A DNA stretch of 13,203 bases. It comes from Anaerolineales bacterium (GTDB lineage Bacteria; Chloroflexota; Anaerolineae; 4572-78; NAK82). The stretch covers positions 1 to 13,203 of the forward strand of contig JAHELX010000101.1 of NCBI GenBank assembly GCA_024643945.1, read 5' to 3'. Position numbers and translations under genes: made by a program. Shown in pieces: positions 1,796 through 13,203 of this stretch (the stretch's first letter is position 1; each line of letters begins with the position of its first letter). A model generated the notes under the pieces. That model was not told the DNA's origin. It saw nothing but the letters and a program-made list of their open reading frames with translations, and did no database searches.

Positions 1796-3145
1796 ATGGA
1801 CAAAAGTCGCATCCTCGGACGTCTGGCTGAGGTAGTTGGGCCTCAATATGTCGCCGACGAACGCTTCGTGTTGCAGTCTTACTCTCAGGATTTCGGCATT
1901 ATGCCTCGCAGTATGCCGGATCTTGTCGTCAGGCCCAGAACCACGCAAGAGATTTCGGAGATCATGAAGATCGCCAACGAGTTCCGGGTCCCTGTCATTC
2001 CCCGTGGAGGTGGCTCTGCGCAAGAAGGTGGGGGCACGCCTGCCAGAGGCGGGATCACCCTCGAGACACTCCGCATGAACGAGATCATCGAAGTGGATGA
2101 GACGAACGGGACTGTCACTTGCGAAGCCGGCATCACCTATGTCAAGCTGATGGACCACCTGGAGAAGAAGGGCTGGAAAATCGGCATTGCCCCCTCGGGC
2201 GCCATGGCCGGCACACCGGGAGCACACATTGCTCGCCCAGGTGTCGGTTGGGGGAACATCAAGTACGTCTCTAGTGGCGACCAGGTGCTCGGGCTGAAAG
2301 TCGTTCTCCCTAATGGCGACATCGTCGGGACTGGGACATCGGCCAATCCGAATTCCGACGTTTTCTTCCGCTACGGGTTAGGTCCCGACCTGACCGGCCT
2401 TTTCGTGGGCGCTGAAGGGGCCTTTGGCATTATTACCGAGTGCACGCTGCGCCTGTACCCCTACCCACAAAAGATATATCTGGAGCGCTACACAACCAGC
2501 GACCTGACCGAAGCCATCAAGGTCTTCCGCGAGTTGGCTGTGAGTAACCTGGTCGTTTACGTCTCAGTACCAGTCATCAAGCCAGGTGAATTCATCCTAT
2601 TCGATATCAACGTCGAAGGTGATGAGCAAGAAGTAGCCATGCGGGTGGAAAAGATCCGCAATCTGGTTATGAGTCACCCTGGAATAAAGTACGAAGGGCC
2701 CGAAGGCCCCCAGCGATTCTGGAATAACCGGTGGTACCTGACTGGCGAAGAGTTTAAGGAAGGTATTGCCGGGGCCGTCAACTACTTCTTGCCCTTTGAC
2801 AAGCTCGAGAACGCGACTTATGTGATGAAGGAGGTTATGGACCGCCATCAGGTCAAGGTTTACGCCCAGCAGATGTTCCCCGAACCAACAGGGTCAGAGC
2901 ACGTTAGCTTGATGTTCTTTCACCCCGCTGATAAAGACGAGAGAGCCAAGATCCTGACTGCTATGGACGAAATGATGAACAAAGCCCTGGAAATGGGTGG
3001 GGCGCCTTATTCAAAAGGCCGGCAATGGGGGCCCTACCTGCGAAAACACCTGGGAAACACGGGCTATTGGCGTTTGCTTACCTCCATCAAAGAAACGCTT
3101 GATCCCAATCACATCATGAACCCTGAGGTGATTGGGCTTTCTTGA
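1796..3145 (+). CDS. FAD-binding oxidoreductase, GlcD-like (VAO/PCMH superfamily)
   Basis: A 449-residue flavoprotein expected to oxidise a hydroxyacid or alcohol and pass electrons to the iron-sulfur protein encoded next. The N-terminal FAD_binding_4 domain (about residues 1-225) shows the pyrophosphate loop R70-G-G-G-S-A-Q-E-G-G-G, then GAHIARPGVGWG and the family block DLTGLFVGAEGAFGIITE (about 197-214). The C-terminal FAD-oxidase_C-like domain ends in IKETLDPNHIMNP, the usual end of this superfamily. The canonical GlcD/D-lactate dehydrogenase motifs HxGDGNxH and GEHGxG are not seen; GSEHVSLMFFHP and GGAPYSKGRQWGPYLRKH occupy those places, the latter reminiscent of vanillyl-alcohol oxidase-type C-termini. 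Glycolate is therefore only one possible substrate. Start: AGGAG at 1785-1789, six bases before the ATG. No signal peptide, so cytoplasmic or peripherally membrane-bound through its partner. Confidence 0.85.
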   Translation: MDKSRILGRLAEVVGPQYVADERFVLQSYSQDFGIMPRSMPDLVVRPRTTQEISEIMKIANEFRVPVIPRGGGSAQEGGGTPARGGITLETLRMNEIIEVDETNGTVTCEAGITYVKLMDHLEKKGWKIGIAPSGAMAGTPGAHIARPGVGWGNIKYVSSGDQVLGLKVVLPNGDIVGTGTSANPNSDVFFRYGLGPDLTGLFVGAEGAFGIITECTLRLYPYPQKIYLERYTTSDLTEAIKVFRELAVSNLVVYVSVPVIKPGEFILFDINVEGDEQEVAMRVEKIRNLVMSHPGIKYEGPEGPQRFWNNRWYLTGEEFKEGIAGAVNYFLPFDKLENATYVMKEVMDRHQVKVYAQQMFPEPTGSEHVSLMFFHPADKDERAKILTAMDEMMNKALEMGGAPYSKGRQWGPYLRKHLGNTGYWRLLTSIKETLDPNHIMNPEVIGLS

Positions 3146-3181
3146 GTAGAGTTATCTCAACACCTGAAAGGGGAATTGCCG

Positions 3182-4330
3182 ATGCTGGATTTGAGCCTGG
3201 CAAAACTGAGAAAAGAACTATATGATTGTAGCCGCTGTGGTTTCTGCCGTGTCTGGGAATGGAAGGGAGTGGTATGGGTTTGCCCAACCTACCCTTACAC
3301 CGAAGCCTACGATACGCAGTACGCGCGCGGCCGACTACGTATGGCGCAGAGCTTTTTTGAAAACGATGCCGAGATCAACCTGACCTATTTAGAGCATGCC
3401 ATGCAGTGCTCGTTGTGCGGCAGTTGCGGTGTGCACTGTCCGGTCAATATACCTTTGTTTGAAATCTGGCACGCCTGGCGCAAGGATTTGATTGAAGCCG
3501 GTTATGTGTTGCCGGCTCATCAAAGGGCAGCCGACAATGTATCCCAGCACTATAGTATTTTCGGCCCCAGGCCGGGCAAGCAGGTCGAGACCAGCGCAGA
3601 AAAGCGAAAAGTAAACGTTCTTTATTTCCCCGGCTGTCAAACCAATCGCAAGGCGAGAGCAATTGGCCAGGCAACAGTCGAGCTTTTGCAGAAACTGGGC
3701 GCTGATTTTGCGGTGCTGGAAGAAGATGCCTGCTGCGGCTATCCTATGTATGACATTGGCCAAATGGAGGTGGCGCGTAAGGTGGCGCTCCATGCCCTGG
3801 AAAGTATCAAAGCCTACCAGCCAGACGTGGTCTTGACCACATGCATCGGTTGCTATCGCGCATTGACTGTTGTGTATCCCCAGGACTTGGGACTTGTGCC
3901 GGGCATTCAAGTCCAGCATGTTCACGAATTCTTCCCCTCGTTGATCCAGGGCAAACTGCACTCCATCACCCGCAAGATCGCCTTCCACGATCCCTGTATT
4001 ATGGGGAGGCATATGGGCCTCTACGACGAGCCCCGCTCGCTGCTCAGTTCTATTCCGGGTGTCGAGTTGGTGGAAATGTACTCCCACCGCGAGCACGGCC
4101 TGTGCTGCGGTGGCGGGGGCGGCGTCTTGGGAGCTTTCGACGACATCGCGGCTCAGGTTGCCATCGAACGATTGCAGCAAGCCGCTGCGGCCGGTGCTGA
4201 CCAGTTGGTGACCTCTTGTCCCACGTGCGTCGTAAATCTGAAGCGAGCTGTCAAGAAGGCGGGTGTTAACCTCAATGTCTCGGATATCGTGGAGTTGATT
4301 AACGAGGCGATACCAAATGCTGGAAATTGA
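3182..4330 (+). CDS. Iron-sulfur oxidoreductase subunit, HdrD/GlcF-like, two CCG domains
   Basis: A 382-residue electron-transfer protein, the probable partner of the preceding flavoprotein, comparable with GlcF, LldE/LutA-type proteins and HdrD. Counting from the ATG at 3182, a first [4Fe-4S] site uses Cys16, Cys19, Cys22 and, after an unusually long gap of 11 residues, Cys34-Pro. A second, classical CxxCxxCxxxCP site uses Cys76, 79, 82 and 86. Two C-terminal CCG (cysteine-rich) domains follow: FPGCQTN...CCGYP...CIGC and DPCIMGR...CCGGGGG...CPTC, the motif set that binds a noncubane or extra cluster in heterodisulfide reductase. An in-frame TTG at 3176 is possible, but the AAAGGGG at 3167-3173 is only two bases from it and eight from the ATG, so the ATG is preferred. 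No membrane segment is seen. The end overlaps the next gene by 14 bases. Confidence 0.85.
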   Translation: MLDLSLAKLRKELYDCSRCGFCRVWEWKGVVWVCPTYPYTEAYDTQYARGRLRMAQSFFENDAEINLTYLEHAMQCSLCGSCGVHCPVNIPLFEIWHAWRKDLIEAGYVLPAHQRAADNVSQHYSIFGPRPGKQVETSAEKRKVNVLYFPGCQTNRKARAIGQATVELLQKLGADFAVLEEDACCGYPMYDIGQMEVARKVALHALESIKAYQPDVVLTTCIGCYRALTVVYPQDLGLVPGIQVQHVHEFFPSLIQGKLHSITRKIAFHDPCIMGRHMGLYDEPRSLLSSIPGVELVEMYSHREHGLCCGGGGGVLGAFDDIAAQVAIERLQQAAAAGADQLVTSCPTCVVNLKRAVKKAGVNLNVSDIVELINEAIPNAGN

Positions 4331-5699
4331 TCTTCTGATCATCCACGGGCTGGTCGTCACCATGGACGACCAGCAGCCTGTGATAGAAGACGGTGCCGTG
4401 GCGGTACATCAGGGCAGGATCCTGGCCGTGGGGGCCAGCGCCAACGTTTCCGCCCAGTATAAAGCCGCCAAGATCGTTGATGCCAGCCGCAAGGCCGTAC
4501 TGCCCGGCTTTGTAGACACACACCACCATTTCTTACAGAACTTTCACAAAGGCACGCGCGATGACCTGGACCTGATAGATTGGATTGACAGGGTATCAGT
4601 CCCCCGCATCAAGGTGGCGGTTCAGGACTATTTGGCCGGTCAGTATGCTATTCAACTGCACGCGTCCAGGCTGGGCTGTATAGATGCCATCAGGTCAGGT
4701 ATCACTACCATCCTCAACATGGAATGGGCCACCCATCCCTCGGTCATTGACGTGCTCGAGCAAGCCGGTATCCGTGTCGTACATACGATTACGATGACCG
4801 ATCAGTGGATCTCCCCGGCGGTGCTCCTTCCCCATGACCGCCTGCTGGCCCTGGCCGACCAACTGCGGGAACGCTGCCAGTCATCTGCCAACGCCAGGAT
4901 CTCCTTCCGTTACGGACTCGCTTGCCCCAATTCCTGCAGCGTCGAGCTTATCAAGGAAGTGCGGGCCCTGGCGGATCGCCACCGGGTGCCCATCCATATC
5001 CACATCGCCGAGTCGGAGTACGAGTGGCACAACATTCACAACCTATTTGGCGCCACACCCACCGGCCACTTGCATAACCTGGGTCTATTGGGACCGGATG
5101 TCCTGGGGGCTCATTGCATCTGGCTGTCGGATGACGACATCGAGCTCTTTTTTAGGACCGGGACCAAAGTTGCTCACAACCCTGAATGTAATATGAAGGT
5201 TGCCGATGGCATTGCCCCCATTGCTAAGATGTTAGAGGCTGGCATTGTTGTCTCGCTGGGGACAGATAGCTGCGCCGTCAACGATAACATGGACATGTTC
5301 GAAGCCATGCGTACGGCGGCATTTCTACAGAAAGTGGCCACCATGAACCCTGCCGTCTTGCCGGCACCGGTTACACTGCGCATGGCCACGTTAGGGGGCG
5401 CTGAGGCATTAGGCATGGAGCAGGATATTGGCTCGCTGCAAGCGGGCAAGAAAGCCGACCTGATTCTGGTCGATTTGGGCCAGTCCCATATGCGGCCCAT
5501 CAATAAAATCGAAAACAGCCTGGTCTATTGTGCCAATGCCCACGATGTGGAAAGTGTGATGGTTGACGGTCAGCTTGTGATGGAAAACCACAAGATTTTG
5601 ACCGTGGATGAGGAAACCTGGGTTACCGATGCGGTAACGTACGCCTACCGGAGGTTCACCCAAGCCGGGATCGAGCTACCCACATACTATTGTCTGTGA
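4317..5699 (+). CDS. Metal-dependent amidohydrolase, SsnA/TrzN/SAH-deaminase type
   Basis: A 460-residue cytoplasmic hydrolase of the amidohydrolase superfamily (COG0402-like), whose known members deaminate S-adenosylhomocysteine/methylthioadenosine, guanine, cytosine or 8-oxoguanine, or dechlorinate triazines. Metal and catalytic residues are all in place: His69 and His71 in PGFVDTHHH, His229 and Glu232 in HIHIAES, His266 in LGAHCIWL, and Asp317 in SLGTDSC. HNPECNMKVADGIAP is the usual substrate-pocket strand of the deaminase branch. The N- and C-terminal beta-sandwich pieces are present (ADLILVDL near the end), so the length is normal. It starts inside the end of the iron-sulfur gene (14-base overlap; GAGG at 4304-4307 as ribosome site), implying the same transcript. 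Its presence hints that the pathway substrate carries an amine, an imine or a ring nitrogen; the true substrate is unknown. Confidence 0.85.
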   Translation: MLEIDLLIIHGLVVTMDDQQPVIEDGAVAVHQGRILAVGASANVSAQYKAAKIVDASRKAVLPGFVDTHHHFLQNFHKGTRDDLDLIDWIDRVSVPRIKVAVQDYLAGQYAIQLHASRLGCIDAIRSGITTILNMEWATHPSVIDVLEQAGIRVVHTITMTDQWISPAVLLPHDRLLALADQLRERCQSSANARISFRYGLACPNSCSVELIKEVRALADRHRVPIHIHIAESEYEWHNIHNLFGATPTGHLHNLGLLGPDVLGAHCIWLSDDDIELFFRTGTKVAHNPECNMKVADGIAPIAKMLEAGIVVSLGTDSCAVNDNMDMFEAMRTAAFLQKVATMNPAVLPAPVTLRMATLGGAEALGMEQDIGSLQAGKKADLILVDLGQSHMRPINKIENSLVYCANAHDVESVMVDGQLVMENHKILTVDEETWVTDAVTYAYRRFTQAGIELPTYYCL

Positions 5700-5726: not shown

Positions 5727-6746
5727 ATGAAAATCGCCCTTCTGCAACAACCCTTGGTAATGAAAGTAGAAGAATCTGACAAACCAGTCGTCGGCCCCCA
5801 TGAAGTCCTGGTCAAAATCGCCGCCTGTGGGGTGTGTGGCACCGACGTCGAGGCCTACTTGGGCAAAGTGCCGCGCGGCTGGACGATCACCTATCCGCTC
5901 CGCATGGGACACGAGTTGTCGGGGACCGTGGTCGAGGTCGGCGCAGAGGTGCCCAATGTGAAACCAGGCGACCGCGTGGTACCGGATGGCCGCCTGACGT
6001 GTGGCTATTGCTATTACTGCCGACATGGTCTGTTCAGCGCTTGTGAAAACCAGGGCTACTTCTCGGGTGGGTTGGCCCAATTCAGCAAGTATCCTTACCG
6101 CAACCTGGTCAAAGTTCCCGATGGCATGTCTCTACAAGAGGCAGCTTTTACTGAGCCCCTCGCTTGCGTAGTAAATGGCCAATCTAAGCTGGACGTACCC
6201 TTTGGCGGGGTAGCCGCCGTCATCGGCGATGGCCCGATCGGGCTGCTGCATCTGCAGATGCTCAAACATCGCGCGGCGTTTACGGTAATGATCGGCTTGT
6301 TGGATCATCGGCTGGCCGTCGCCAGGGAGTTGGGCGCCAACCTGGTGATTAACGCCAGCCGCGAAAACGCAGAGCAAATCGTCCGCCAGGTATCCGGCGG
6401 ACATGGTGCCGACATCGTGATCAGTGCGGCTGGCAAAGTACCCGTTCTGCTACAGGCGATTAATATCGCGGCCAGGTGCGGGCAGGTGCTGTACTTCGCC
6501 GCTACGATGGAGCCTCGCGTCGAGCTGGATCTCGACCTGATCCACTACAAGGAGCTGTGCTTAATTGGCAGCTACGACTCGACCATCGCCCAGTACGAAG
6601 ACGCTTTGGCTTTGTTAAAGGCCGGCGTTGTCAACGTCAAGCCATTGATTTCCCATAGATTGCCTCTTGAACAAGTGCAGCAAGGCTACGAAATCGCCCG
6701 CAAGCAAGAGGGCCTGAAAGTCTTGATCGTCCACGAAGGAGAATGA
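5727..6746 (+). CDS. Zinc-dependent alcohol dehydrogenase (MDR, sorbitol/threonine dehydrogenase-like)
   Basis: A 339-residue NAD(P)-dependent medium-chain dehydrogenase, probably oxidising a polyol or other secondary alcohol in the cytoplasm. The GroES-like catalytic domain shows catalytic-zinc ligands Cys37 (CGVCGTD) and His62-Glu63 (GHELSG). The structural-zinc cysteines are Cys92, 95, 98 and 106 (CGYCYYC...C). The Rossmann domain begins with VIGDGPIGLLHLQ, and the acidic residue in GLLDHRLA at the end of the second strand suits NAD(H). The length is typical. The ATG at 5727 is preceded by GAGGTG at 5714-5719, seven bases away, and the gap to the amidohydrolase is only 27 bases. The substrate class follows from family resemblance only. 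Confidence 0.88.
   Translation: MKIALLQQPLVMKVEESDKPVVGPHEVLVKIAACGVCGTDVEAYLGKVPRGWTITYPLRMGHELSGTVVEVGAEVPNVKPGDRVVPDGRLTCGYCYYCRHGLFSACENQGYFSGGLAQFSKYPYRNLVKVPDGMSLQEAAFTEPLACVVNGQSKLDVPFGGVAAVIGDGPIGLLHLQMLKHRAAFTVMIGLLDHRLAVARELGANLVINASRENAEQIVRQVSGGHGADIVISAAGKVPVLLQAINIAARCGQVLYFAATMEPRVELDLDLIHYKELCLIGSYDSTIAQYEDALALLKAGVVNVKPLISHRLPLEQVQQGYEIARKQEGLKVLIVHEGE
6736..6741 (+). promoter_or_regulatory. Ribosome binding site that decides the Ftr-homologue start
   Basis: AAGGAG lies ten bases before the ATG at 6752 but only one base before the ATG at 6743 that overlaps the upstream stop. Spacing and the match of MKINNVTIYDTFAEAW to the N-terminus of archaeal Ftr proteins both favour 6752. 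Confidence 0.6.
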
Positions 6747-6751
6747 TCGCC

Positions 6752-7624
6752 ATGAAGATCAATAACGTGACCATCTACGACACCTTTGCTGAAGCCTGGG
6801 ACCTGGAGGTCATGCGGGTGGTTCTCACAGCCACGACAGGCGAACTGGCCCTGGGAGGGGCCTACCAGTTTGCTGGAGCCGCCGGTTCCAGCATGATCGG
6901 CTCGCGCATCAACGCGGGCATTGAGCGCCCCGCTCTCCCTCACGAAACGCCCGATGGCCGGCCTGGCGTCTTTATCTCCATGGCCATGGTACCCACGGCT
7001 CGCCAGGATATGCTCAAAGAGTTGGAGCTGCGCGTGGCTCTGGCCTCGTTGATCCCCACTATTGCCGTCTTCAATGCCAGCGTGGGCGCCGTGCCAACCG
7101 TTCAGGCCAACATTCACGACCTATTCAATATGTCCAAGGAACGATGGAATGGATACGACGCCGAATGGCAGGTGAACGGACACACCGTGTGTGTCGTCCC
7201 CACCACCATGGGAGAGTTTATCTACGAGAAGGAATACCAGGTTTGCACCAGCGGCACCGACGGCCACTTTGTCTGCTTTGCAGACAGTGCCCTGTCCGCT
7301 GTGGCAGCCATTGGCGCAGCCAAGGAGGCCATTGCCGGCGTGGATGGTGTCGCGCCTATGGGCTATGGTCTGGAACAGGTCTTTCGCGAATACGACTATA
7401 TCCCCTCGCTGCGCGACAAAATAAAGGACAGCCACGTTCCAGAGGGCGTCCAGTCCATTCTCAACCTGCTGATGTTTGGCGCCAGCCCCGAGCTGATGAA
7501 AAAGGCCATGAGAGTCAGCCTGACCGCCGCCGTCCAGGTGCCCGGCGTGTTGTATCTGGGCGCTATGAATTTCGGTGGCCAGTTCGGCAAACACCAGTAT
7601 CACCTGCACCAGATATTGAAATAG
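6752..7624 (+). CDS. Formylmethanofuran:tetrahydromethanopterin formyltransferase (Ftr/FhcD) homologue
   Basis: A 290-residue, apparently full-length member of the Ftr family. Characterised members move a formyl group between methanofuran and tetrahydromethanopterin in methanogens, sulfate-reducing archaea and H4MPT-using methylotrophs. Recognisable blocks, from memory of archaeal Ftr, are: N-terminal MKINNVTIYDTFAEAW; AGIERPALPHETPDGRPGV (invariant-looking E65-T-P-D-G-R-P); the middle-domain ALSAVAAIGAAKEAIAGVDGV; PSLRDKI (Arg221-Asp222-Lys223) with VPEGVQSI; and the end GAMNFGGQFGKHQYHLHQIL. The loop just before PSLRD, which in classical Ftr carries a SGSKVGSKY-like stretch, is shortened to MGYGLEQVFREYDYIP, so carrier binding may differ. 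No formylmethanofuran dehydrogenase, cyclohydrolase or methylene-H4MPT dehydrogenase gene is in view. It is very close to the alcohol dehydrogenase (5-base gap) and 80 bases before the MttB homologue, so a linked role is likely. Family assignment is strong; the actual carriers and acyl group are not known. Confidence 0.82.
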   Translation: MKINNVTIYDTFAEAWDLEVMRVVLTATTGELALGGAYQFAGAAGSSMIGSRINAGIERPALPHETPDGRPGVFISMAMVPTARQDMLKELELRVALASLIPTIAVFNASVGAVPTVQANIHDLFNMSKERWNGYDAEWQVNGHTVCVVPTTMGEFIYEKEYQVCTSGTDGHFVCFADSALSAVAAIGAAKEAIAGVDGVAPMGYGLEQVFREYDYIPSLRDKIKDSHVPEGVQSILNLLMFGASPELMKKAMRVSLTAAVQVPGVLYLGAMNFGGQFGKHQYHLHQILK

Positions 7625-7704: not shown

Positions 7705-9153
7705 GTGCCCAGAAAGGGATTTACTCGCCAATTTCAGGCCCTGGAATTTCTTTCTCAAGCCCAGCTTGAGGCAATGCATCGCGCAACGCTGGACATCCTA
7801 TGGGAAACGGGCATACGCTTTGAGAGCGATTGGGCTCTCGACTTTTTGAACAAGAACGGCTGCCGGGTAGATGCCGAGCACAAGCGCGTCAGGTTTCCTG
7901 GGGCCCTGGTGCAGGAATGCCTGGCCCAGGTCCCTAAGCAATTCCGGGTCAAGGCGCCCGGCCCGCAAAACGAACTGGTGTACGGCGGCAATACCGTCTA
8001 CTTCTCGCATAGCTCGGGCATGCAGACTATTGATCTAGACACCTACCAGCCGCGCCTGCCGACCCGGTCCGAATATATTGATTGCATCCGCGTCCTGGAT
8101 GCCTTGCCGGCGCTCGACCATTTGGGCTGCTATCCCTATTTTGGCTATGAGGGCATCTCGCCCGCCATGGGTATACCCGAGGGCGTCGCCCTGCACATGC
8201 AGTATTCAGGCAAACACCAACTGGCCTGTTGCTCCAACGACTGCGAGCTGTTTACCATCCAGATGGCCCAGGCCGTCGGGCACGAACTGACCGGTACCAT
8301 CGGCTCGTCGCCACCCCTGGCCTGGGGCAAAGATGCCATCACCGCTGCGCGTCGAGTGGTTGAAGCCGGCTTCCCCCTGGCCACCGTGGATGGCTGCATC
8401 ATGGGCGGCAATGGACCGGTGACCGCCCCCGGTTCTGTCCTGGTCAGCAATGCCGAACAACTGGCCATGGTGGTGCTCGTCCAGATTTTGCGCCCAGGAC
8501 AGCGCATGTTGATCGGCCATTTCTCTTTATCAATGAATATGCGGACCGGCTCGCCCAACTTCGGCGGGATCGAGTCCTCAATCAATAACGTGATCTTTAA
8601 CCAGCTTTGGCGGTATTATGGCGTGCCCTTCAGCAACGGCAGCCCAGGCTACGTCAATGCCAAAACAATAGACTATCAGGCGGGGTATGAGAAGAGCATG
8701 GCGGCGCTCATCTCCGCTTTATCCGGCGCCAACCACATCTTGCTGCACCTGGGGGTAGCCGGCGAGCTGTCGGCCCATCCCGTCCAGGCCATCCTGGACG
8801 ACGACATCGCCGGCATAATTGGGCGCTTTATCCAGGGCGAGGAACTCAGCGACGAAACCATTGCCTTGGATCTGATCAAGGAAGTGGGGCCGCTGCCCGG
8901 CAACTATCTGAGTACCATCCATACCCGCGACTGGTGGCGCAAGGAACAATACGTGCCCCAGAGCGCCGATCGCTCCACGTATTCGGAATGGACACAGACC
9001 GGCAAGAAGCGTGCCCTGGATTACGCCCGGCACCGCATGGACAAGATCTTGGCCGCGCCCCAGACGATACACCTGACACCCGGCCAGGAACGCGACATAG
9101 ACAAGATCTTGCAGGAAGCAAGAGAGTTTTACGCAAAGAGAGAGCAAGTTTGA
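7705..9153 (+). CDS. MttB-superfamily methyltransferase homologue, non-pyrrolysine
   Basis: A 482-residue TIM-barrel protein of the trimethylamine methyltransferase (MttB) family. Known members pass a methyl group from trimethylamine (pyrrolysine type) or from glycine betaine, proline betaine or carnitine (MtgB/MtpB/MtcB, no pyrrolysine) to a corrinoid protein. Family marks are the N-terminal MHRATLDILWETGI (residues 24-37), the central VDGCIMGGNGPVTAPGS, the QAGYEKSMAALISALSGAN helix, and the C-terminal half IDKILQEAREFY. There is no in-frame TAG, so no pyrrolysine. The segment after Gly341-Ala-Asn (HILLHLGVAGELS), close to where MttB carries pyrrolysine, differs from the usual GYLE/WLExGL pattern. 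The GTG start has a good ribosome site. No corrinoid-binding protein, RamA-like activase or MtaA/MtgA-type second methyltransferase is in the window, so the methyl acceptor is unclear. The family is sure; the methylated substrate is not. Confidence 0.83.
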   Translation: MPRKGFTRQFQALEFLSQAQLEAMHRATLDILWETGIRFESDWALDFLNKNGCRVDAEHKRVRFPGALVQECLAQVPKQFRVKAPGPQNELVYGGNTVYFSHSSGMQTIDLDTYQPRLPTRSEYIDCIRVLDALPALDHLGCYPYFGYEGISPAMGIPEGVALHMQYSGKHQLACCSNDCELFTIQMAQAVGHELTGTIGSSPPLAWGKDAITAARRVVEAGFPLATVDGCIMGGNGPVTAPGSVLVSNAEQLAMVVLVQILRPGQRMLIGHFSLSMNMRTGSPNFGGIESSINNVIFNQLWRYYGVPFSNGSPGYVNAKTIDYQAGYEKSMAALISALSGANHILLHLGVAGELSAHPVQAILDDDIAGIIGRFIQGEELSDETIALDLIKEVGPLPGNYLSTIHTRDWWRKEQYVPQSADRSTYSEWTQTGKKRALDYARHRMDKILAAPQTIHLTPGQERDIDKILQEAREFYAKREQV

Positions 9154-9190
9154 CACATGCCTCACCAACCACTTGGGTTACAAAACCGTC

Positions 9191-10204
9191 ATGCAACCAC
9201 TTAGGCTAGGCATCATCGGAACGGGCGTCGCAGCTCGAGAACTTCACTGGCCGGCGCTTAAGCAAATGCCAGATCGCTACCAGGTCGTGGCCGTCGCCAA
9301 TCGCAGCCGCGACAAAGCGGAGGCATTTGCTGACATGGTGGGCCTCCAGCGCGCAGCCGTATACAGCGACTACCGCCAGTTGTTGGCTCGTGATGACGTG
9401 GATGTTGTAGATCTGGCCTTGCCTCCACAGCTCAATTACAGTGTCGCACGAGCAGCAGCAGAGTCAGGCATCCACGTGATTTGCGAGAAACCCATCGCGA
9501 TAACAATGGAAGAGGCTCACGCGATGGTTGCTCTTTCGTCGGAGTTCGGTGTCCAGGTGCTAATTGCCGAGAACTTTCGCTACGATAACGCGATACGAAA
9601 AGCCAAAATGCTACTGGATGAGGGAAAGGTCAACCCTCCGTTTATGCTGTCATATCAATATGTGCAGCCGGTGCCACCCGATGATGAAATCGCCGGCCGC
9701 CCTTGGCGACAGCAGCCAGCTCATGCAGGCGGATGCCTGAGCGACCACGGGGTCCACATGATCGATGTCATCCGCTATCTGATGGGTGAGGTGGCAGAAG
9801 TGCAGGTCTTTGCTTGTGACCTGTGCGACGACCTGGTCGGGATGGATACCGCTGTTTACAACCTCAAATTCGAATCGGGGGCCATTGGCTCAATCCAGTG
9901 GTCCTTCAGCGTCGCTTCAGAGCGCCGCTCTATCATCCAGCTATGGTCTGAGGACGCAACCATGCATACAAGCCCGGATGAAGTGCGCGTGATGCGACGA
10001 GGTCATGCTGATGAAGCCTTTCCAATCAGCGGCCCAACCAGCTTCGTGAATGAGTTCGAAGACTTTTACGCAGCGCTGACCCAAGGTCAAGTTCCGTTGG
10101 TGACGGCTCAGGACGCGCTAAGGGATTTAGAGACCGTATTGGCTGCGCATCGCTCGGCCATTGTTAATGAGGTAATAGTTCTTGATCGGGAGAGACACAA
10201 TTGA
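9191..10204 (+). CDS. Gfo/Idh/MocA-family oxidoreductase
   Basis: A 337-residue NAD(P)-dependent dehydrogenase of the glucose-fructose oxidoreductase/inositol dehydrogenase family, expected to oxidise or reduce a sugar, inositol or aminosugar-like ring carbon in the cytoplasm. The Rossmann domain opens with LGIIGTGVAAREL. The family's EKP motif is Glu99-Lys100-Pro101. The catalytic region GGCLSDHGVHMIDVIRYLMG supplies Asp185 and His189 with Asp192. The C-terminal beta-sheet domain is complete. A TTG at 9173 would add six residues, but the homologous start MQPLRLGIIG fits the ATG at 9191. Neither has a clear Shine-Dalgarno, so translation may be coupled to the MttB gene 37 bases upstream. The stop overlaps the TTG start of the SDR gene by four bases. 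The substrate is unknown. Confidence 0.87.
   Translation: MQPLRLGIIGTGVAARELHWPALKQMPDRYQVVAVANRSRDKAEAFADMVGLQRAAVYSDYRQLLARDDVDVVDLALPPQLNYSVARAAAESGIHVICEKPIAITMEEAHAMVALSSEFGVQVLIAENFRYDNAIRKAKMLLDEGKVNPPFMLSYQYVQPVPPDDEIAGRPWRQQPAHAGGCLSDHGVHMIDVIRYLMGEVAEVQVFACDLCDDLVGMDTAVYNLKFESGAIGSIQWSFSVASERRSIIQLWSEDATMHTSPDEVRVMRRGHADEAFPISGPTSFVNEFEDFYAALTQGQVPLVTAQDALRDLETVLAAHRSAIVNEVIVLDRERHN
10188..10194 (+). promoter_or_regulatory. Ribosome binding site supporting the TTG start of the SDR gene
   Basis: GGGAGAG lies six bases before the TTG at 10201. That TTG overlaps the Gfo/Idh/MocA stop (TTGA) and gives MRLPGKVAIVTGG, the expected SDR N-terminus, so the TTG start is well supported. Confidence 0.6.
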
Positions 10205-10983
10205 GACTGCCAGGCAAAGTGGCTATTGTTACCGGTGGGGGATCTGGACAGGGTCGTGCCATTGCACTTCTTTTTGCGCAAGAAGGCGCTCGCGTTGTAA
10301 TAGCTGATGTCAACCCAGCTTTGGCGCAGGAGACAGCACACCGGATCAGGGCTTCGGGGAGCAGTAGCGCCCTTGTCATAGCTACAGATGTGAGTAATGA
10401 GAGGGATGTCCAGCGCCTGGTGGACGAAGCAGTGCGCGAGTTTGACGGACTGGACATTCTGGTGAACTGTGCTGGCAGGCTGGGGCCGCTGGGCAAAGAG
10501 ACGGCAGATCAGTTGACACGTGAGGAATGGGATGCGACATTGGGGGTCAATCTGATTGGCCCATGGTTGTGCATCAAATACGCTGCGCCTGTGATGAAAG
10601 AGAGGGGAGGCGGTATCATCATCAATGTGGCTTCCACGGCGGGGTTGCGACCCTTCCCGGGGGCTGCGCCCTATTGTGTCTCCAAAGCAGGCTTGCTGAT
10701 GCTCACCAAGACCGTGGCGCTCGAGTATGTCTCACATAATATCCGTGTCAACGCCATCTGCCCAGGACATATTGATACGCCTATGATGGACGTGGTCATA
10801 GCGGACATGGAGGCCCATGGAATTGCCGATGCACGCGGCAAAGTGCATAGCCAGAGCAACCCCATGGGACGCCTGGCACAACCTGAGGAAGTCGCAACAG
10901 CCGCGCTTTTCCTGGCCTGCCAAGATTCGTCTTTTGTAACCGGTTCCTATGTCTTGGTAGACGGTGGCTATATGGCCAGGTAG
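10201..10983 (+). CDS. Short-chain dehydrogenase/reductase (SDR, classical type)
   Basis: A 260-residue NAD(P)-dependent oxidoreductase of the classical SDR family (FabG/glucose-1-dehydrogenase/sorbitol dehydrogenase-like), acting on a hydroxyl or keto group of an unidentified substrate. The cofactor loop is TGGGSGQG (residues 11-18), with LVNCAG as the NAG motif. The catalytic set is Ser145, Tyr158 and Lys162 (YCVSK), with the normal 13-residue Ser-Tyr spacing. VRVNAICPGHIDTPM and a C-terminal SSFVTGSYVLVDGGYMAR complete the family pattern. An Asp (VIADVNP) at the end of the second strand suggests NAD(H) rather than NADP(H). It starts with TTG inside the previous stop codon, implying translational coupling. 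The next gene lies 70 bases on, with its own strong ribosome site. Confidence 0.9.
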   Translation: MRLPGKVAIVTGGGSGQGRAIALLFAQEGARVVIADVNPALAQETAHRIRASGSSSALVIATDVSNERDVQRLVDEAVREFDGLDILVNCAGRLGPLGKETADQLTREEWDATLGVNLIGPWLCIKYAAPVMKERGGGIIINVASTAGLRPFPGAAPYCVSKAGLLMLTKTVALEYVSHNIRVNAICPGHIDTPMMDVVIADMEAHGIADARGKVHSQSNPMGRLAQPEEVATAALFLACQDSSFVTGSYVLVDGGYMAR

Positions 10984-11041
10984 AGCCGTCCTCGGTTGTG
11001 CCGACCCGCAAGCAGCGTTCTCGAATCAGCGAACAAACCCT

Positions 11042-11047
11042 AGGAGG
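11042..11047 (+). promoter_or_regulatory. Ribosome binding site that decides the aldo/keto reductase start
   Basis: AGGAGG directly abuts the ATG at 11048 but lies six bases before the ATG at 11054. The latter gives MRYRKLGKTG, the standard N-terminus of this family, so 11054 is chosen. Confidence 0.65.
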
Positions 11048-11053
11048 ATGACT

Positions 11054-12025
11054 ATGCGTTACCGCAAGTTAGGCAAGACAGGCTTTGAGGTATCAGAAAT
11101 CAGCTTCGGCGCCTGGGGCATCGGCGGCGATTGGTGGAAGGGCGCAGTGGACGAAGAATCCCTGCAATCTATGCGCACGGCGCTCGAACTGGGGGTCAAC
11201 TTTATTGACACGGCACCCAACTATGGCAACGGCCACAGCGAAAAGCTGGTTGGCCAGGCAATTCGTGGCCGGCCGGGTCGAGTGTACGTCGCCACCAAAG
11301 TGAATCCTAAAAATTACACCTGGCCCGCCGCTCCAGGCACCCCACTCCAAGCGGTATTCCCCAAGGATTGGATCGTCGAATCCACCGAAAAGAGCCTCAA
11401 GAATCTTGGCCTGGAATGCATAGACCTGCAGCAATTCCACGTCTGGTTGGATGAATGGGCCGAACAGGACGAGTGGAAAGAGGCCGTGGTGCAGTTGAAG
11501 CAACAGGGCAAAGTCGCTGCATTCGGCCTTTCGTTGAACTACCCCTTAGAGCCGGATTATGGCGCACAGGCGATCCGCACCGGATTGATAGACGCTTGCG
11601 AGGTCGTATACAACATTTACGAGCAAGTCCCCGAGGCAGGCCTCTTCCCCCTGGCGCTCGAAAAGAACATCGGCATCGTCGTCAAATCTCCGCTCGACGA
11701 GGGCGCCTTGACAGGCAAAATCAGGCCGGATACAGCCTTTCCAGAAGGCAGTTTCCAGGATTTTTATTTCAAAGGAGACCGCAAGCACGAAGTTGCGGAG
11801 AGGGCCAAGGCACTGGAGTTTTTGTTGCACGACGGCGTTGAGACCCTGGCCGAAGCAGCGCTACGCTTTTGTCTCAGCCACCCGGCTGTTTCGACACTGA
11901 TCGTTGGCATGCGTAAGGCAGAGCACACCAGAGAAAACGTCAAAGCATCGGACAAAGGCCCTCTGCCCCAAGAGGATTTAGCCAGGTTGAAAGAGCACGC
12001 CTGGCCCCACAACTTCTGGGTATAA
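11054..12025 (+). CDS. Aldo/keto reductase
   Basis: A 323-residue TIM-barrel NADP(H)-dependent oxidoreductase of the bacterial aldo/keto reductase family, likely reducing or oxidising an aldehyde or ketose intermediate in the cytoplasm. The N-terminal RKLGKTGFEVSEISFGAWGIGG is the usual opening. The catalytic tetrad is complete: Asp52 and Tyr57 (IDTAPNYGNGHSE), Lys82 (VATKVN) and His129 (LQQFHVW). The C-terminal HPAVSTLIVGMRKAEHTREN is the phosphate-binding region for the cofactor. The frame is open upstream to 10964, but the ribosome site and family alignment place the start at 11054. It follows the SDR by 70 bases and is followed by a 136-base leader before the transporter gene, so it may end this operon. 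The substrate is not deducible. Confidence 0.9.
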   Translation: MRYRKLGKTGFEVSEISFGAWGIGGDWWKGAVDEESLQSMRTALELGVNFIDTAPNYGNGHSEKLVGQAIRGRPGRVYVATKVNPKNYTWPAAPGTPLQAVFPKDWIVESTEKSLKNLGLECIDLQQFHVWLDEWAEQDEWKEAVVQLKQQGKVAAFGLSLNYPLEPDYGAQAIRTGLIDACEVVYNIYEQVPEAGLFPLALEKNIGIVVKSPLDEGALTGKIRPDTAFPEGSFQDFYFKGDRKHEVAERAKALEFLLHDGVETLAEAALRFCLSHPAVSTLIVGMRKAEHTRENVKASDKGPLPQEDLARLKEHAWPHNFWV

Positions 12026-12161: not shown

Positions 12162-13203
12162 ATGTCCAAGAGTCTTCTGGTCAAGGTTGCCTTGGTCGCA
12201 GTCGTGGCCACCTTGGCGCTTATCGCGGCCCAATGTGGCCCCGCGCCGACTCCCGAGAAGATTGTGGAGACAGTCATCGTCACCAAAGAAGTCCAGGGTG
12301 AAACGATAACTGTGGTCGAGACAGTCGAAGTGGTCAAGACGGTTGAAGTGGAAAAGACCGTCGAGGTAGAAAAGATTGTCGAGAAAGAAGTCCCCGTCCA
12401 GACAGATGTGGTGACTATCGCCTACAACGGATACTTTAACAAGACCTTCGGCCCGGCGGATACCCCCATCAACGTGATACGCCAAGAGGTGGCCAAGAAG
12501 TATCCCAACATCAAGGTCGAGTTCAACGTCATGCCCTACGACGCCGGCCCCTGGCACGACAACTACCTGACCTGGTTCCAGGCCGAGGATGGCACCACCG
12601 ACCTGTTCGGTGTTGGCCTCTACTGGCTGCCGGAGTTTGCTGCGGCGGGCTACTTGCTGCCCCTGGATGGCAAGATCAGCCCCGATATCCTGAAGCAGTT
12701 AAACCCGACCTACCTCAAGGCATTCACCTATGACGGCAAGCTGATGTCGCTGGGGCCATGGTGGGGCGGTATCGGTGGCCTCTACTATCGCAAAGATCTG
12801 CTGGAGAAATACGGCTTTGAGCCGCCCAAGAGCTACGACGAAGTGGTGAAAATCGCGCAAGCGATCACAGCGGAAAACCCCGACATGAGTGGGTGGACCT
12901 GGCCGGCCTTGAAGGACCAGGTGCTCGTCAACCGTTGGGTGGAATATCTCAACGGCTTCGGCGGCACCTACTTTGACAGCGCCGGCAAGTGCGTCATGAA
13001 CGACGAAAAAGGGCTGGCTGCCCTGGAGTTCATGATGAGCCTGTTCGATCAAGGCATCACCCCTCGCGAAGCGCTGACCTGGAAGGAGGAGGAATCCCAG
13101 GTGCAGTTTGCCAGCGGCCAGGCTATCTTCCACACCGGCCGTCAGGATATGATGTTCTGGCTGGACAACCCGGAACAGTCCAAGATCGTCGGCCAGTGGG
13201 GTT
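12162..13203 (+). CDS. ABC transporter sugar-type solute-binding lipoprotein, 3'-truncated by window edge
   Basis: The first 347 codons of an extracellular, membrane-anchored binding protein of the family-1 (MalE/UgpB-like) type, which would capture a carbohydrate-like ligand for an ABC importer. Residues 1-24 form a lipoprotein signal peptide (Lys3, Lys8, then a VALVAVVATLALIAAQ hydrophobic core), with Cys25 as the lipid-attached residue. Gln at the -1 position makes the lipobox (AAQC) non-canonical. Residues about 33-80 are a Val/Glu/Lys/Thr linker including four six-residue units at 54-77, seen often in Chloroflexota lipoproteins. The binding domain follows (VVTIAYNG..., YPNIKVEF, DLFGVGLYWLPEFAAAGYLLPLD, GGLYYRKDLLEKYGFEPPKSYDE, FASGQAIFHTGRQDMM). 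Tryptophans in the ligand region fit sugar stacking. The gene continues past the window; permease and other transporter genes are expected beyond. Confidence 0.9.
   Translation, partial: MSKSLLVKVALVAVVATLALIAAQCGPAPTPEKIVETVIVTKEVQGETITVVETVEVVKTVEVEKTVEVEKIVEKEVPVQTDVVTIAYNGYFNKTFGPADTPINVIRQEVAKKYPNIKVEFNVMPYDAGPWHDNYLTWFQAEDGTTDLFGVGLYWLPEFAAAGYLLPLDGKISPDILKQLNPTYLKAFTYDGKLMSLGPWWGGIGGLYYRKDLLEKYGFEPPKSYDEVVKIAQAITAENPDMSGWTWPALKDQVLVNRWVEYLNGFGGTYFDSAGKCVMNDEKGLAALEFMMSLFDQGITPREALTWKEEESQVQFASGQAIFHTGRQDMMFWLDNPEQSKIVGQWG
12321..12392 (+). repeat. Four imperfect 18-base coding repeats (VEK linker)
   Basis: Four consecutive 18-base units encode TVEVVK, TVEVEK, TVEVEK and IVEKEV between the lipid anchor and the binding domain. 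Third positions vary between units (GTC/GTT, GAA/GAG), so selection appears to act on the peptide spacer rather than on the DNA. It probably acts as a charged, extended stalk. Confidence 0.75.

Follow-up and report, generated by a model that had tools for sequence, protein, structure and literature searches.

Ftr, the formylmethanofuran-tetrahydromethanopterin N-formyltransferase, is commonly taken to indicate C1 metabolism of the methanogenesis type. As its key catalytic residue we take Glu245 (M. kandleri numbering), which, in a 2006 structure paper on Ftr with its coenzymes, reportedly binds the substrate and stabilises the intermediate. Fhc systems have an amidohydrolase gene close to the gene of FhcD, an arrangement that is also found at the locus described here. 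According to excerpts of an account of the MttB superfamily (PMC12155760), several of its non-pyrrolysine members remove methyl groups from quaternary amines; in Eubacterium limosum, choline is first phosphorylated by a kinase and then demethylated by an MttB-family protein, and the methyl group is passed to tetrahydrofolate. Excerpts of the literature on Chloroflexi note mttB in Anaerolineae (PMC11264602) and mention Ftr with reference to a methanogen (PMC7117926).

The window, i.e. the whole stretch of 13,203 nucleotides that was analysed, contains an Ftr-like gene at 6752-7624 on the forward strand. The open reading frame extends from 6743 to 7624 (+) with candidate ATG codons at 6743 and 6752. 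An AGGAG sequence is located 10 bases upstream of ATG 6752 and just 1 base upstream of ATG 6743, and the majority of the aligned homologues begin at the residue encoded by position 6752. Because the spacing is usable there and the homologue starts coincide with it, we placed the start at 6752, and the coordinates of the original prediction are right. The preceding dehydrogenase gene (ADH) ends 5 bases before the Ftr-like gene, and 80 bases separate the latter from the gene of an MttB-superfamily protein.

Two Pfam profiles match the Ftr-like protein above their gathering cut-offs: PF01913 (E = 4.8e-25, 88.6 bits, cut-off 27) and PF02741 (E = 1.3e-20, 74.3 bits, cut-off 25). A sequence search of the PDB yielded archaeal Ftr as the top match (E = 3.6e-42). 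The predicted fold (pLDDT 89.7) resulted in TM-scores by query of 0.85-0.87 to the entries 1m5s, 1ftr, 1m5h and 6s6y_D. The protein is thus borne out as an Ftr homologue by profiles, PDB match and fold; with both profiles significant, the homology is not refuted. The motifs quoted earlier, including DTFAEAW and ETPDGRPG, are present as well. An end-to-end match to Ftr had also been claimed. This stands insofar as the similarity spans the whole length, but the protein contains a deletion and its PF02741 alignment starts only at profile position 76. The curated cut-offs were missed for both TIGR03119 (score 151.4, cut-off 292.6) and NF002554 (score 176.2, cut-off 297).

With the window protein as query, a search of 5.8 billion protein sequences returned 333 relatives at E-values up to 0.001, and identity to the window protein was 61-95% among the matches listed (120 of the 333). 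A second search, with the locus member that differs most from the window protein (L007), returned 179 relatives, 120 of them listed. Of the listed proteins, the 196 with 270 or more residues were aligned with ten locus members and the window protein, which gave a clade alignment of 207 sequences. A first canonical set of 21 sequences was composed of 17 proteins encoded at other loci of bacterial genomes and four PDB chains. For the residue counts it was extended to 141 by the best 120 of 8000 scored sequences; these lie near Anaerolineae FhcD and form an uneven sample, which the four PDB and 17 locus rows broaden. Two database rows of less than 270 residues and the incomplete locus rows in the canonical score range (L031, L033, L034 and L040) were omitted before counting. 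A maximum-likelihood tree was built from 69 rows, made up of the 21 canonical sequences and 48 Ftr-like ones out of the 207. One branch with 100/100 support separates the two groups; it was recovered in 100% of 200 bootstrap trees and has a length of approximately 2.9 changes per column. The placement in an Ftr tree that had been proposed as a check therefore puts the protein outside the sampled Ftr/FhcD group, as judged from an unrooted tree with 21 canonical rows.

Column 245 (M. kandleri numbering) is occupied by Asn in 206 of the 207 clade sequences and by Glu in all 141 canonical sequences. The window protein is among the former; its residue is Asn241, counted from the ATG at 6743. The sole exception in the clade, P0198, has Thr. 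The loop Mk204-215 is deleted in the window protein and gapped in 207 of 207 clade sequences, whereas the canonical rows occupy every position of it but 214 (gap in 138 of 141). All 141 canonical sequences have Ser207 and Ser209, and the loop reads Ser-Gly-Ser-Lys in most of them. Positions Mk198-200 are likewise gapped in the clade. Further changes are fixed in all 207 sequences: Phe to Trp19, Thr to Ser49, Gln to Leu100, Asn to His175, Gly to Met275 and Leu to Phe281. The clade has a charged motif of its own, GLEQxxRE, and has in common with Ftr the motifs DT[FY]AEA, ETPDGRPG and, close to the C-terminal end, GG.[FL]G. The many invariant positions argue for a working enzyme with a different job rather than for decay. 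We consider it very probable that the Ftr-like proteins form a distinct, neofunctionalised family.

All genes of the window are on the forward strand and were named by profile searches. The window starts with an FGGY carbohydrate kinase, nearest to xylulokinase (3-998), which is truncated by the left edge and has a full-length homologue in Candidatus Formimonas warabiya. It is followed by a DeoC/DhnA-type class I aldolase (995-1741; closest solved structure MJ0400), a GlcD/VAO-like FAD-linked oxidase with FAD_binding_4 and FAD-oxidase_C domains (1796-3145), a CCG-domain Fe-S protein (3176-4330) that is likely the partner of this oxidase, a TRZ/ATZ-type amidohydrolase similar to SAH/5'-deoxyadenosine deaminases (4317-5699) and the ADH, a Tdh/IolM-like, Zn-dependent medium-chain dehydrogenase (5727-6746). 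Downstream of the Ftr-like gene are the MttB superfamily protein (7705-9153; PF06253, 270.6 bits, cut-off 25), a Gfo/Idh/MocA oxidoreductase (9173-10204), a short-chain dehydrogenase (SDR, 10201-10983; Pfam), an IolS-like aldo-keto reductase (AKR, 10964-12025; Pfam), whose true start is probably downstream of 10964, and a sugar-type ABC solute-binding protein (12162-13202) truncated by the right edge. The MttB homologue has an open frame of 482 codons. A pyrrolysine-containing MttB proper was rejected for this gene, as the cut-off of TIGR02369 was missed (263.9 of 525 bits) and there is no in-frame amber codon; the closest solved structures include glycine betaine methyltransferase. The sugar-type dehydrogenases, kinase, aldolase and MttB homologue that had been named as neighbours are confirmed by these profiles. 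No Fwd/Fhc, Mch or Fae family was detected among the 12 main proteins (Pfam for 12, NCBIfam for 10), so that the predicted absence of formylmethanofuran dehydrogenase/Fhc and Mch from the window holds.

Fourteen separate neighbourhoods were considered (the window, L001-L009, L055, L068, L069 and L070), with genes named by profile searches or by BLAST to genes named by profile. The Ftr-like gene, kinase, aldolase, amidohydrolase, ADH and AKR form a module that is conserved in Chloroflexota and Bacillota. Amidohydrolase, ADH and Ftr-like gene are adjacent in this order in 13 of 14 neighbourhoods; in the exception, L003, an MtmB homologue and not ADH precedes the Ftr-like gene. The AKR is present in 12, and the contigs of the other two (L006 and L007) stop early. 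Kinase, aldolase, FAD oxidase and CCG protein are encoded upstream in the window, L004, L005, L006, L008, L055 and L068, and on a separate contig in the genomes G001 and G002 (L071 and L072). The contigs of L007 and L009 start within the CCG gene. Kinase and aldolase were found in L069 and L070, with no match to FAD oxidase or CCG protein within 20 kb, and a search of G003 for the FAD oxidase found none. Identity between the window and L001, computed in some cases from partial sequences, is 77% for the Ftr-like gene and 76% for the ADH, 71% for the amidohydrolase, 70% for the AKR, 68% for the solute-binding protein and 64% for MttB. There is little doubt in our view that the Ftr-like gene is a member of this module, and it is near certain that the distinct family is sited in it.

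The MttB gene is located downstream of the Ftr-like gene, directly or after a corrinoid protein gene, in six of 14 neighbourhoods (window, L001-L004 and L055) and upstream of it in L008. The ftr-mttB neighbourhood, whose recurrence had been suggested as a check, does recur but is not universal. The intervening corrinoid protein gene is present in L001, L002, L003 and L055; the window has none at this place. Other neighbourhoods have MtmB, pterin-binding methyltransferase, URO-D or GcvH-type genes near the Ftr-like gene. At least one gene of corrinoid or methyl-transfer type is found in 11 of 14, where the evidence in L069 consists solely of one URO-D family protein under the MtaA-type cut-offs; the three without such a gene are the short contigs L006, L007 and L009. 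The description as a carbohydrate-type operon holds, but it is incomplete in view of these methyl-transfer genes. The importers differ as well: sugar-type ABC importer genes are present in the window and L001-L003, where relatives of the window's solute-binding protein are followed by permease- and ATPase-type genes, and CbiQ-type (ECF) importer genes in L005, L006, L068, L069 and L070, all from the phylum of G005. L007 contains the small membrane gene of this importer alone.

Some further features of these neighbourhoods were observed. In the window, the Gfo/Idh and SDR pair (9173-10983) is inserted between MttB and AKR, unlike in L001, L002, L003, L004 and L055, where the next matched gene after MttB is the AKR; the Gfo/Idh/MocA gene had no BLAST match in the other 13 neighbourhoods. 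A conserved small membrane protein precedes the CbiQ-type and ATPase genes in L005 (11050-11664), L006 (10998-11624), L068 (11568-12215) and L069 (722-1333). That of L005 had no Pfam or NCBIfam match; gene position and hydrophobic sequence suggest a possible new ECF substrate-binding (S) component. MtmB homologues near the Ftr-like gene were identified by profile search (PF05369) in L070 (15966-17390) and L008 (1-1029) and by BLAST in L003 (3709-4731), L004 (1590-2609) and L055 (17423-18442). The frames of L070 (profile positions 4-449) and L008 (115-450) contain no stop and thus lack the in-frame amber codon of pyrrolysine MtmB. A second FAD oxidase/CCG pair together with a GcvH-type lipoyl protein (PF01597) is encoded in L005 (16747-19791) and L068 (1580-6273), perhaps as a redox system with a lipoyl carrier that is linked to the module. 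In L068 this set adjoins a lipoate-ligase-like gene (156.8 of 280 bits).

For the methanofuran and H4MPT genes we searched 13 carrier genomes (G001-G009, G028, G792, G876 and G1028; G005 is Ca. F. warabiya), so that genome-wide absences are those of relatives of the window genome, drafts included. A canonical Ftr besides the Ftr-like gene and an FwdA over cut-off were both found in G005 and G006; the remaining 11 of 13 have neither. General amidohydrolases matched the FwdA profile below cut-off in nine of the nine genomes searched for this. Mch homologues over the PF02289 cut-off are present in seven of 13 (G005, G006, G007, G028, G792, G876 and G1028), and the five Mch proteins tested (from G005, G028, G792 and G876) are all over the TIGR03120 equivalog cut-off. 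MfnB was found in one of nine carriers searched (G005). In G001, G002, G003, G004, G008 and G009, all titled or sampled as Chloroflexota, PF01913 detected the Ftr-like gene and no second Ftr, and no Mch, MfnB or FwdA over cut-off was detected. The same searches were positive in methanogens, which served as controls, and in Ca. F. warabiya. The drafts may have gaps, but gaps alone are an unlikely cause of the joint absence of four genes from six genomes. Ca. F. warabiya, whose genome is complete, has a standard cluster of fwdA, ftr, mch and mfnB at 0.869-0.876 Mb; its Ftr-like gene (L005 10004-10873) is 2.4 Mb away at 3.238 Mb, within the module genes at 3.228-3.249 Mb. Neither the window nor the identified genes of the other 13 neighbourhoods include a complete Fhc/H4MPT set beside the locus, and the outcome of an ordinary FhcD was not obtained. 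It is rejected on curated cut-offs, residues, loop, tree and gene context together.

The Mch homologues of three carriers were inspected in their own surroundings, which lie outside the Ftr-like module in other gene groups (G876, G028 and G792). They are found in L073 (8468-9439 and 13613-14581), L075 (6899-7924 and 18598-19563) and L076 (7721-9567), in genomes without a canonical Ftr or FwdA over cut-off. Mch adjoins genes of E1/E2-type dehydrogenases in L073 and L075 (G876 and G028, several names by eye) and is near TRZ/ATZ-type amidohydrolases and BMP/nucleoside-type importers in L075 and L076 (G028 and G792, importers by eye); the L076 amidohydrolase and four Mch proteins of this set were checked by profile, the other names were given by eye. 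In L075, from a Chloroflexota sample, a luciferase-family (PF00296), Mer-like gene (5916-6902) adjoins Mch and reached 240 of 276 bits against NF002619 (methylene-H4MPT reductase). These placements hint that archaeal C1 enzymes have been reused more widely in the catabolism of bacteria, and the seven carriers with Mch may use an H4MPT-like carrier.

Among 396 genomes from the class of G002, six have the Ftr-like gene at E < 1e-100; five genomes have the FAD oxidase (E up to 1e-90), and each of them is one of these carriers. Sixteen other genomes of this sample gave weaker matches (E = 3e-43 to 6e-15), and those of their sequences that were placed in the tree are canonical. Samples of 400 genomes from the phylum of G001 and 398 from that of G005 yielded two carriers and, at E up to 1e-60, six carriers, respectively; all three samples contain the starting genomes. 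A tblastn search of plasmids with the Ftr-like protein returned 32 records, all below 60% identity, and the named genes among the 20 listed are fhcD. With the FAD oxidase of the module 896 plasmid records were obtained, all below 60% and at most 29.7% among the 25 listed, and this search found no plasmid-borne version of the module without the Ftr-like gene that could reveal the substrate.

Based on these genes we propose the following function. The Ftr-like protein would be a member of the Ftr fold family that acts in anaerobic catabolism and probably moves formyl-level carbon; leaving the acceptor aside, we regard the case for this as evenly balanced. We lean slightly towards a protein that is still an acyl or formyl transferase, and tetrahydrofolate as the formyl acceptor is a tentative choice. 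Reaction and substrate are both inferred from the genes. The substrate of the module would be a polyol- or sugar-like amine, usually N-methylated; a possible candidate is the trimethylaminopentanetetrol head group found in the lipids of methanogens. After import, the sugar- or polyol-like compound would be oxidised by ADH and AKR, the xylulokinase-like kinase would phosphorylate it and the class I aldolase would then cleave the carbon chain. MttB- and MtmB-type methyltransferases would transfer methyl groups to corrinoid proteins, from which the pterin-binding-type methyltransferase would pass them on, probably to tetrahydrofolate. The amidohydrolase could hydrolyse a C=N or C-N bond and possibly yield an N-formyl compound; this product is a guess, because the TRZ/ATZ family mainly deaminates heterocycles. 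The Ftr-like enzyme would take the formyl-level carbon freed after the amidohydrolase step and transfer it to an acceptor, perhaps tetrahydrofolate, with Asn241 assuming the role of an oxyanion hydrogen-bond donor. Asn at position 245 could, however, also sustain the old Ftr chemistry, which speaks against this explanation. An undescribed anaerobic pathway for N-methylated polyol amines in Chloroflexota and Bacillota, in which methyl groups (via MttB/MtmB and corrinoid proteins) and formyl-level carbon (via the Ftr-like enzyme) both end on tetrahydrofolate, is rather doubtful as a whole. If it were true, this would be the first Ftr-fold enzyme that operates without methanofuran and H4MPT.

The original prediction had left two readings, a methanofuran/H4MPT one-carbon branch wired into the pathway or a fold with a different reaction. 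The former would imply a diverged but functional FhcD/Ftr that moves formyl groups between methanofuran-like and H4MPT-like carriers, in a C1 branch joined to MttB methyl transfer. Fold and common motifs, the Mch proteins of seven carriers and the methyl-transfer genes in the same neighbourhoods are in line with it. However, the clade lacks Glu245 and the loop, the standard pathway of Ca. F. warabiya has its own, separate Ftr, FwdA is over cut-off in only two of 13 carriers, and six Chloroflexota carriers have none of the four genes searched. The branch is disfavoured by this last result, and we consider a diverged Ftr of this kind improbable. What favours the latter reading is that these proteins have lost Glu245 and the loop Mk204-215 and form a clade of their own. 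The gene check that had been proposed, run on 13 relatives, came out mixed, with none of the genes in six, Mch in seven and FwdA plus canonical Ftr in two.

A different reaction need not involve one-carbon units. The fold might serve as a hydrolase, lyase or acyltransferase for a non-formyl group of a sugar-like intermediate, as could be read from the loss of the presumed catalytic Glu and the loop, the new motif GLEQxxRE and the resemblance of the rest of the module to sugar or polyol catabolism; the methyl-transfer genes of 11 neighbourhoods make a C1 role the simple guess, if indirectly, and we think the non-formyl activity possible but not likely. Alternatively, the module might degrade a purine- or pterin-type ring, which the amidohydrolase would deaminate or open, with the formyl carbon taken by the Ftr-like protein and a ribose-like part used by kinase and aldolase. 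The amidohydrolase is indeed closest to SAH/5'-deoxyadenosine-type deaminases, the Mch genes of G028 and G792 are near amidohydrolases of the same type and nucleoside-type importers, and the CbiQ-type importers of five neighbourhoods (and the lone small membrane gene of L007) belong to a kind that is usual for vitamin-like compounds. Yet no nucleosidase or phosphorylase is among the identified genes, the importers of the window and L001-L003 are of sugar type and those Mch genes are unlinked to the Ftr-like genes, so we rate ring degradation as unlikely. The gene might also be a mere passenger of the operon, a relic that is decaying or has no catalytic role. This would agree with the loss of the presumed catalytic Glu, but it is hard to reconcile with the many positions that are invariant across 207 sequences and with a conservation between window and L001 that at least equals that of the neighbours (77% versus 64-76%); we give it hardly any credence. 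The transfer of formyl-level carbon from an intermediate of the pathway is our preferred reading.

This bacterial family accounts for at least 196 cluster representatives in the databases. Many named members (e.g. P0001, P0004 and P0015) are labelled as formylmethanofuran--tetrahydromethanopterin N-formyltransferase, others (e.g. P0014) as 'hypothetical protein'. Members named as Ftr that lack the canonical Glu and the loop can therefore point falsely to H4MPT/methanofuran pathways. The locus provides a testable case, with one carrier, Ca. F. warabiya, under study and completely sequenced, and it connects MttB proteins that lack an assigned substrate to a concrete gene set. No prior description of the family was found in titles and abstract openings, a search outside of which most subscription papers lay. 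A term search of the main text of the Ca. F. warabiya proteome paper gave no formyltransferase, methanofuran, aldolase or ECF, the main text on the Mlp clusters (PMC10418091) contains neither formyltransferase nor MttB, and excerpts of PMC8141765 and PMC11656701 contain nothing about Ftr residues.

Compared with the known systems, the Ftr-like protein has the same whole fold as archaeal Ftr (1ftr, 1m5s and 1m5h), with 32-34% identity in the structural alignment, and the motifs DT[FY]AEA and ETPDGRPG in common. It differs from archaeal Ftr by the Asn in place of Glu245, the missing loop, the separate clade, the gene context and scores below the curated Ftr cut-offs. Methylotroph FhcD (6s6y_D), which is also bacterial, has the same fold (TM-score 0.85 by query and 0.81 by target), but its identity is just 23%. 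The amidohydrolase of the locus is of the TRZ/ATZ type and not the FhcA of an Fhc complex; an FhcA/FwdA over cut-off is found only in two of 13 carriers, both with a canonical Ftr. With the MtgB, MtcB and MthB systems (the last with the kinase MthK) the locus shares a non-pyrrolysine MttB homologue, and related loci have a corrinoid protein, a pterin-binding methyltransferase and a kinase nearby, as is the case in MttB-superfamily systems. The kinase of the module is of the FGGY type, unlike MthK, and the excerpts of the MttB-superfamily account (PMC12155760) mention no Ftr-like, aldolase or amidohydrolase gene, all of which are part of the module described here.
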